Source: Mesorhizobium sp. 113-3-3 (GTDB lineage Bacteria > Pseudomonadota > Alphaproteobacteria > Rhizobiales > Rhizobiaceae). Taken from it: a DNA stretch of 64,000 bases. Within the stretch, counting starts at the first letter, position 1; every line of letters begins with the position of its first letter. This document shows, one piece after another, positions 1 through 33,901 of the stretch. The stretch spans positions 2,360,501-2,424,500 of the forward strand of contig NZ_AP023243.1 of the NCBI RefSeq assembly GCF_016756495.1, written 5' to 3'. The notes beneath the pieces were generated by a model. The model searched no databases. It was not told the DNA's origin and was given only the letters and a program-made list of their open reading frames with translations. The position numbers and the translations under genes are program-made.

Positions 1-49
1 CGATAGGGGTGATCAACGTCAAGCCCTGTAAGGCCGCATGCGTGCCCGC

Positions 50-31129: not shown

Positions 31130-31303
31130 TCAAAGCGTCCTGCGGATCCGTGGGCCGCTTTGCGCGTCGATGACGATTTCCGGCCAGCCGATGTCCTTGC
31201 GCAGTTCGATCGGCAGGGACAACAATTCGCGCTCGCTGCGGTGGCGGGCGCGGTTCTGTGCGTAACGGGAGGCAACGCGACCCAGGGATGACAGAATGGA
31301 CAT
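31130..31303 (-). CDS. DUF1127 domain small protein
   Basis: 57 residues from ATG 31303 (MSILSSLGRVASRYAQNRARHR), with GGAG upstream. The Arg-rich helix followed by RSERELLSLPIELRKDIGWPE is the DUF1127 signature. DUF1127 proteins are small, stress-responsive RNA-associated regulators in alphaproteobacteria (for example CcaF1 in Rhodobacter). Confidence 0.88.
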   Translation of the reverse strand: MSILSSLGRVASRYAQNRARHRSERELLSLPIELRKDIGWPEIVIDAQSGPRIRRTL

Positions 31304-31427: not shown

Positions 31428-31736
31428 CTAGGCTACCTTAAGCGTCGGGATAGCTGAAACGTCAATTTCACGCTCGGCGTGCCAGGCATCGAAAGCCGCC
31501 TGCATCCGAAGCCAGATCGCGGCACCGTCGCCAAACAGCTTCCCAAGGCGAGCGGCCACAGCCGGCGAAACCGGCTTCTTTTCGCGGATGATGTCATAAA
31601 GCTGTTGCCGGGAGATCCCGAGCAGATTTGCAATTTCCACCTTGGTCTTTCCGGTTGCCGGGATAATGTCCTCAAGTAGCGCCCCCGGGTGGGAGGGACA
31701 ACGCTCGATCGGACGCGTCGGCTCGTGCACGGTCAT
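31428..31736 (-). CDS. higA: HigA family antitoxin
   Basis: 102 residues. Xre-type helix-turn-helix: HPGALLEDIIPATGKTKVEIANLLGISRQQLYDIIREKKPVSPAVAARLGKLFGDGAAIWLRMQAAFDAWHAER, the standard VapI/HigA layout. Binds and neutralises HigB and represses the operon. Located 27 bp after the toxin gene, in the toxin-first order typical of hig loci. Confidence 0.94.
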   Translation of the reverse strand: MTVHEPTRPIERCPSHPGALLEDIIPATGKTKVEIANLLGISRQQLYDIIREKKPVSPAVAARLGKLFGDGAAIWLRMQAAFDAWHAEREIDVSAIPTLKVA

Positions 31737-31763: not shown

Positions 31764-32042
31764 TCAGTGATATTGCTCGAAATCGACGCGGGCGGCATCA
31801 TTACCGTCGAATTCAAATGTGATGCACCACGGGCCGTTGACATGGACCGTGTAGCGGATCGGATCGAAGCCTTTCAGCGAGTGGAAGTCGAAGCCGGGGA
31901 GGTTCATCTCCTCCGGCTTCTCCGAAGCTTCCAGGCGGTCAAGCCGGACAAGAATGCGCTTGTGCATTTTGGCGTCGATCTTACCGGTTTTTCCGGTTTG
32001 AAAGAGGTCCGACAGCGCCTTGTTCTTGAAGGACTTGATCAT
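31764..32042 (-). CDS. higB: HigB family toxin (RelE/ParE superfamily RNase)
   Basis: 92 residues, MIKSFKNKALSDLFQTGKTGKIDAKMHKRILVRLDRLEASEKPEEMNLPGFDFHSLKG...IRYTVHVNGPWCITFEFDGNDAARVDFEQYH. The GFDFHSLKG and NGPWCITFEF motifs are the HigB pattern for ribosome-dependent mRNA cleavage. Starts within a few bases of two operator repeats. Likely intact. Confidence 0.94.
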   Translation of the reverse strand: MIKSFKNKALSDLFQTGKTGKIDAKMHKRILVRLDRLEASEKPEEMNLPGFDFHSLKGFDPIRYTVHVNGPWCITFEFDGNDAARVDFEQYH

Positions 32043-33654: not shown

Positions 33655-33790
33655 TTGGATTTCTCTGGTCTTGGCCGACATGCGGCTCATGCACTTGGAC
33701 GGTGCGCTTGCTGGCCATCAGGCTCGGCGTTGCGGCACCACGAAGGGCAGACCAAAAAATCGAAGCGGGAAAAACCCGGACCGTCCCTGG

Positions 33791-33862
33791 TCAGCCCTGC
33801 AAGCTGGCTTGCAGGGCAGAAATCGGGCCACGCTGACGATGGTGACGATGAAACGTAAACAC
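33791..33862 (-). CDS. Candidate leader peptide upstream of the ABC-F gene
   Basis: 23-codon ORF starting GTG at 33862 with a near-perfect AAAGGAGGG Shine-Dalgarno 6 bp upstream, stop TGA at 33791-33793. The peptide starts VFTFHRHHRQRGP, very rich in His and Arg, and ends LQASLQG. Its last codons form the perfect 10-bp hairpin at 33794-33817. It begins 40 bp after the EamA stop and ends 137 bp before the ABC-F start. Position and hairpin fit a ribosome-sensing attenuator, but it might also be an independent small protein. Confidence 0.6.
   Translation of the reverse strand: MFTFHRHHRQRGPISALQASLQG
33794..33817 (-). promoter_or_regulatory. Hairpin overlapping the leader ORF end
   Basis: GCCCTGCAAG/CTTGCAGGGC, a perfect 10-bp stem with a 4-nt loop, ending at the base next to the leader stop codon. 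There is no immediate U-tract on the minus-strand transcript, so it is not a simple terminator; T-rich runs come about 30-45 nt later. Confidence 0.65.
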
Positions 33863-33901
33863 GTGAGCCCTCCTTTCAAGACGTTCGAGTGTGCGAAGCG
33901 A

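Follow-up and report, generated by a model that had tools for sequence, protein, structure and literature searches.

The window analysed here, a stretch of 64,000 nucleotides from Mesorhizobium sp. 113-3-3, carries on its minus strand an ABC-F gene preceded by a short leader ORF (Table 1). The initial annotation had described this ORF as 23 codons long, with a GTG start and a Shine-Dalgarno sequence, and its last eight codons as a perfect 10-bp hairpin with the stop codon at the stem base, and both were recovered on the minus strand; the distance that it gave from this stop to the ABC-F start, 137 nt, is actually 136 nt. An ORF start at 33690 was rejected as the ABC-F start, since in the 55 relatives with an N-terminus found the alignment starts at the ATG of MALISLKSLGV or at its equivalent; the spacing immediately before this ATG is variable among them. 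The protein scored below the curated cut-off of the resistance ABC-F models of NCBIfam (292.4 of 380 bits for NF000355, and lower for the named resistance models). The gene upstream of the leader codes for an EamA-type transporter. A promoter-like pair, CTTGCC-17-TGTAAT, stands before the leader, so that leader and ABC-F gene would seem to form a separate transcription unit; the form CTTGNN-16..19-T(A/G)TNNN is found ahead of the leader in 51 of 55 relatives, with CTTGCC itself in 45, and a strict scan of the window gave no sigma-70 promoter.

Table 1 Features of the leader and the ABC-F gene in the window.
Feature	Position	Strand	Basis
Promoter-like -35, CTTGCC	33929-33924	minus	pair recurs in relatives
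Promoter-like -10, TGTAAT, 17-nt spacer, overlapping the stop codon of the upstream EamA transporter gene	33906-33901	minus	
Leader Shine-Dalgarno, AAAGGAGGG	33876-33868	minus	seen in window
Leader ORF, GTG 33862, 23 codons VFTFHRHHRQRGPISALQASLQG, TGA 33793-33791	33862-33791	minus	
Arrest-like motif, codons R-Q-R-G-P-I, conserved	33838-33821	minus	codon analysis
Hairpin H1, 10 bp, within leader ORF	33817-33794	minus	folding, compensatory change, conservation
Element B, AGGGCUGACCA, base of the H1 3' arm, stop codon and 3 nt	33798-33788	minus	
Element C, UUUUUUGGUCUGCCCU	33759-33744	minus	conservation, pairing and covariation analyses
C face pairing with B	33754-33744	minus	
C face pairing with D	33759-33749	minus	
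Element D, AGACCAGAGAA, ABC-F ribosome-binding region, pairing with C	33671-33661	minus	C:D covariation
ABC-F gene, 508 aa, conserved start ATG 33654	33654-32128	minus	

Leader DNA was matched in 57 of 101 related genomes. A covariance model, R1, built from 22 leaders, gave 61 strong matches (E 3.2e-6 or better) from 13 families in 397 genomes of the order; 60 of them directly precede the same ABC-F gene, and at the 61st (G211, L137) a Mutator-family transposase gene (564-1805, minus) lies between leader and ABC-F. The ABC-F protein search (E 1e-90) returned 64 of the 397 genomes, 63 of them with the leader: the 61 with an R1 match and two in which it was recognised by eye (G152, G424). The remaining one, G432, has a 37% relative and no leader. 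In a sample of 385 genomes of the class, the ABC-F was found in 14 (E 1e-120) and the leader in 12 of these, nine with an R1 match and three by eye (G626, G797 and G630); the two genomes without it have the protein at 62% (G704) and 44% (G737) identity, and the former, an orthologue (L268), lies in an A+T-rich stretch with no recognisable leader. Nine of the ten non-own R1 matches in the class precede the ABC-F gene and the tenth, L132, is a false match; all 17 model matches in a sample of 299 genomes of the phylum fall within the class. A pattern scan of named genomes gave at least 118 matches; among the matches listed, 113 precede the ABC-F and in the other five the sequence ends within 186 nt, which leaves the downstream gene not judgeable. 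The genera among the matches listed are Rhizobium, Bradyrhizobium, Mesorhizobium, Ensifer, Bosea, Devosia, Aminobacter, Phyllobacterium, Labrys, Nisaea and others. The genome of the window itself has one leader site, despite four other ABC-F-like loci. The closest proteins bear names that point to Mesorhizobium or a near neighbour. At one locus (L052, G004, at about 900-1200), a natural deletion after the leader has left little of the ABC-F gene besides its C-terminal end; the leader still present no longer shows the Shine-Dalgarno match and lacks one hairpin base, so the leader decays without its gene.

The last eight leader codons of the window (33817-33794) read GCCCTGCAAG-CCAG-CTTGCAGGGC, the stem of H1 closing a 4-nt loop with the stop codon abutting. 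All 108 distinct loci examined keep a stem between the Ala codon and the stop, with 7 or more contiguous pairs in each and 10 or more in 97. Among the 22 distinct pairs of H1 arms, 93.6% of the pairings were standard, compared with a mean of 87.1% and a best value of 91.4% for shuffled partners, none of 1000 shuffles reaching the observed fraction; position 5 exhibited a compensatory change, with U-A in 18, U-G in 1 and C-G in 3 of these arm pairs. The folding energy of the leader was unexceptional (z -1.37, 15 of 200 shuffles folding equally well), and Rfam has no family for it.

The 108 distinct loci gave 71 distinct 11-codon segments for codon analysis. We found Gly-Pro invariant in all 71, which were aligned on it and came mostly from the nucleotide-model search, so that leaders without Gly-Pro could be missed. 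All four Gly codons (GGC 53, GGT 11, GGA 6, GGG 1) and all four Pro codons (CCT 28, CCC 20, CCG 19, CCA 4) are used, with an entropy of zero at positions 1 and 2 and of 1.12 and 1.79 bits, respectively, at position 3. Because Gly-Pro is constant while the synonymous codons vary, the leader peptide is under selection at the protein level. The residue following Gly-Pro is Val or Ile in 67 of the 71 segments and the preceding one is Arg in 59, Tyr in 6, Cys in 3, His in 2 and Phe in 1; position -2 is Gln or Thr in 68 and position -3 is Arg in 63, which gives the consensus R-(Q/T)-R-G-P-(V/I)-x-A. Two variant leaders, found via the ABC-F instead, have RGSV (L270, G797) and RQPV (L271, G630) and both retain the hairpin. 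In each of the 71 segments H1 starts with a GCC (Ala) codon placed four codons downstream of Gly, and thus two codons after Val/Ile, at a fixed distance from the motif. The leader has as a rule 20-27 codons. Its C-terminal ALxxxLQG is probably conserved as RNA rather than as peptide: the stop codon lies inside the hairpin at three loci (L110, L123, L130) and the frame continues past the hairpin at four (L128, L129, L269, L270), with the stem retained in each, as seen by eye.

Element C can pair alternatively with B or with D, the ABC-F ribosome-binding site. In the 108 loci, the best-matching C was located 18-41 nt past the leader stop. Its face UGGUCUGCCCU is complementary to B, apart from a U.U mismatch that recurs in most loci. 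The B:C pairing is conserved and nearly invariant, and because it hardly varies it has no support from covariation, the observed fraction being reached by 53 of 1000 shuffles. D occurs in the lineage variants AGACCAGAGAA, GAUCAGCGAAACG, GGACGAAGAC, CGAUGAGAC and AGACCGGAAG, and the C region changes to match. In a permutation test with 37 hand-picked lineage representatives, the own-pair C:D score had a mean of 20.2, compared to 16.8 for permuted pairs (sd 0.5, best 19.1), and was reached by 0 of 20,000 permutations; a control stretch was null (14.17 vs 14.20). The locus has in this way the alternative helices, one of them hiding the ribosome-binding site, that characterise ermC-type attenuators, with covariation in both H1 and C:D. 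In the ermC-type systems, a stalled ribosome opens a hairpin and the freed arm prevents the sequestration of the ribosome-binding site. The short leader ORF with its own Shine-Dalgarno sequence, the selected peptide and the alternative helices are common to both, whereas here the regulated gene would be an alphaproteobacterial ABC-F, the motif is R-x-R-G-P-V, and the 5' arm of the hairpin is the end of the ORF itself, fixed two codons from the motif. A small hairpin, CGGG-UUUUU-CCCG (33778-33766, minus), lies between B and C; it is common to most of the window's genus and absent from the other lineages read.

We consider the leader likely to be a ribosome-operated translational attenuator of the ABC-F gene. 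Comparison of the sequences brings out the peptide motif, the hairpin, their fixed spacing, element C and the C:D covariation. In the off state, ribosomes would translate the leader and leave, H1 would re-form and the free C would pair with D, hiding the ABC-F ribosome-binding site. In the on state, a ribosome would pause when the Gly-Pro-Val/Ile codons have reached its peptidyl transferase centre, and would then cover with its leading edge the first H1 nucleotides, GCCCU; the freed AGGGC with the stop region (B) would capture C, and D would be released for translation of the ABC-F. We infer here the translation of the leader, the pause and its position, and the direction of the regulation. 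A ribosome with its P-site on Pro-13 (33826) and a footprint extending to +15 to +17 reaches 33811-33809 and covers GCCCU at 33817-33813, the partner of AGGGC at 33798-33794, which is the stretch of H1 required by B; +17 is the end point of inverse toeprints in the portion of PMC6238534 available. The trigger might be a ribosome-targeting drug or a pause relieved by the ABC-F itself, with an antibiotic that targets the ribosome, and from which the ABC-F would give protection, as the likeliest.

That translation of the leader controls its folding, and thereby ABC-F expression, had been proposed in the initial annotation, and the proposal gains support from the comparison: ORF, hairpin and spacing are retained in relatives far outside the genus, and the synonymous codons of the constant Gly-Pro point to selection on the peptide. 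In addition, a covarying pairing was detected by which the leader can reach the ABC-F ribosome-binding site, and which the annotation had missed. The His/Arg richness that it noted is there, but not as the sensing feature, the conserved one being Gly-Pro. If the attenuator reading is right, a ribosome-sensing leader family would extend across rhizobia and relatives, with a new arrest-like motif, R-x-R-G-P-V, and a fixed motif-to-hairpin ruler; it would also give a handle on the function of this ABC-F group, as whatever stalls the leader would name the target of the ABC-F.

The effect of an imposed ribosome was computed in 37 lineage representatives, the RNA beyond the ribosome being folded at equilibrium. 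The ABC-F site had a median unpaired probability of 0.31-0.32 with the P-site five to two codons before Pro, 0.44-0.52 with the P-site from Gly to four codons past Pro, and 0.29-0.32 further downstream, the rise being restricted to the middle interval. With the P-site on Pro instead of four codons earlier, exposure went up in 15 and down in 4 of the 37 (by more than 0.05, p = 1.6e-4). Shuffled intergenic DNA gave 11 up and 4 down, so the switch contrast is modest (real vs shuffled, p = 0.015). The equilibrium fold of the window (L001) stays closed with the stalled ribosome imposed, and exposure rises by more than 0.05 in 4 of the 45 loci of its genus tested. That equilibrium folding does not predict the switch in the window's genus is the main weakness of the attenuator reading; folding during transcription may matter there.

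The same RNA switch could operate with no drug, by autoregulation, which we regard as rather unlikely. R-x-R-G-P-V would then be intrinsically slow and its pause relieved by this ABC-F (or EF-P), low ABC-F activity giving a longer pause and turning on its own synthesis. The near-exclusive pairing of the leader with one ABC-F suits this idea, as does the negative feedback of msrD through its own leader, described in the accessible part of PMC10314930. Gly-Pro beside Arg also resembles the arrest cores RAPP, RGPP and RAGP: according to the sections of PMC12992588 available, the RAPP-like peptides ApcA, ApdA, ApdP and SecM have Arg, then Gly/Ala and Pro, at the putative stall. Those peptides, however, end in RAPP, RGPP, RAPG or RAGP and stand upstream of protein-localization genes, whereas here the fourth residue is Val/Ile, not Pro/Gly, and an ABC-F gene lies downstream. 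The Arg before Gly is moreover replaced in 12 of the 71 segments, and the gene is distributed patchily, in 64 of 397 genomes, which suits resistance better than housekeeping. With about the same modest probability, the leader would encode the ABC-F's own test substrate, a R-x-R-G-P-V pause that the ABC-F resolves, in a closed ribosome-rescue thermostat; if true, the switch would report ABC-F activity and hence any stress occupying the ABC-F, drug or not, and would be old enough to span many alphaproteobacterial families.

Transcription attenuation, in which an intrinsic or Rho-dependent terminator would act unless a ribosome stalls, as at vmlR or msrD, appears less probable still. At 33797-33778 the window scan detected one weak site resembling a terminator, with 6 pairs and an interrupted T tail, against an expectation of 0.3 from shuffles, and T runs occur in the window's genus, but in most of the other lineages read by eye no T run comes after C, and the C:D covariation involves the ribosome-binding region itself. 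The vmlR leader of Bacillus subtilis likewise places an ABC-F under uORF control, with partial Shine-Dalgarno sequestration; its uORF has three residues and the leader contains an intrinsic terminator, in contrast to the longer ORF here and the lack of a convincing terminator (PMC9226507, seen in part). MsrDL, too, is a leader peptide controlling an ABC-F gene, with MsrD feedback, but it acts by transcriptional attenuation with erythromycin in a mobile operon and the peptides are unrelated, as given in the available text of PMC10314930.

It is quite improbable that the ribosome undergoes an ErmDL-like, macrolide-type stall at the +X+ motif R-Q-R, its P-site being on Gln. RQR or RTR is common in the leaders and the erythromycin motifs include +X+ and XPX (PMC13410324 and PMC10314930, in the parts available); such a ribosome, though, reaches only 33820-33818, short of H1 (33817), and of the 71 segments 8 lack the first Arg and 12 the second, against a constant Gly-Pro. 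Macrolide XPX stalling at G-P-V may occur and would be a case of the attenuator reading. The HHRQR codons of the window's leader could suggest attenuation by His- or Arg-tRNA starvation, which is very improbable given that no His or Arg column is invariant in the 71 segments, that several leaders lack the run (e.g. HLTYGP, LSHGPD) and that the regulated gene is not biosynthetic. Hardly credible at all is an RNA element with an incidental ORF, for which the strong conservation of H1 and C as RNA and the moved stop with unchanged stem would speak, against the confinement of Gly/Pro codon variation to position 3.

The ribosome-operated translational attenuator has the same logic as known attenuators, with a new motif and a new lineage. 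In the excerpt of PMC12121999 available, the toiL uORF of Escherichia coli is likewise a Gram-negative uORF at which stalled ribosomes expose a hidden ribosome-binding site; in contrast, its target is topAI-yjhQ, stalls at many positions elicit the response and no ABC-F is involved. The duf1127_1 uORF of Sinorhizobium meliloti, also a rhizobial uORF reporting translation inhibition, acts by premature transcription termination via the first codons of the uORF, and its second half can be scrambled (PMC12218461, as far as its text was available). The term ABC-F is absent from the main text, in the part available, of the S. meliloti small-proteome paper (PMC10117765), and no description of this leader was found in the literature searched, which covers few subscription journals.

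Two genes downstream of the ABC-F, both on the minus strand, code for a HigB-like toxin (31764-32042) and then a HigA-type antitoxin (31428-31736). A 57-aa Arg-rich ORF at 31133-31303 (minus) gave no Pfam match and resembles a DUF1127 protein. One DUF1127 gene of S. meliloti comes with a uORF attenuator of its own, according to the accessible portion of PMC12218461.
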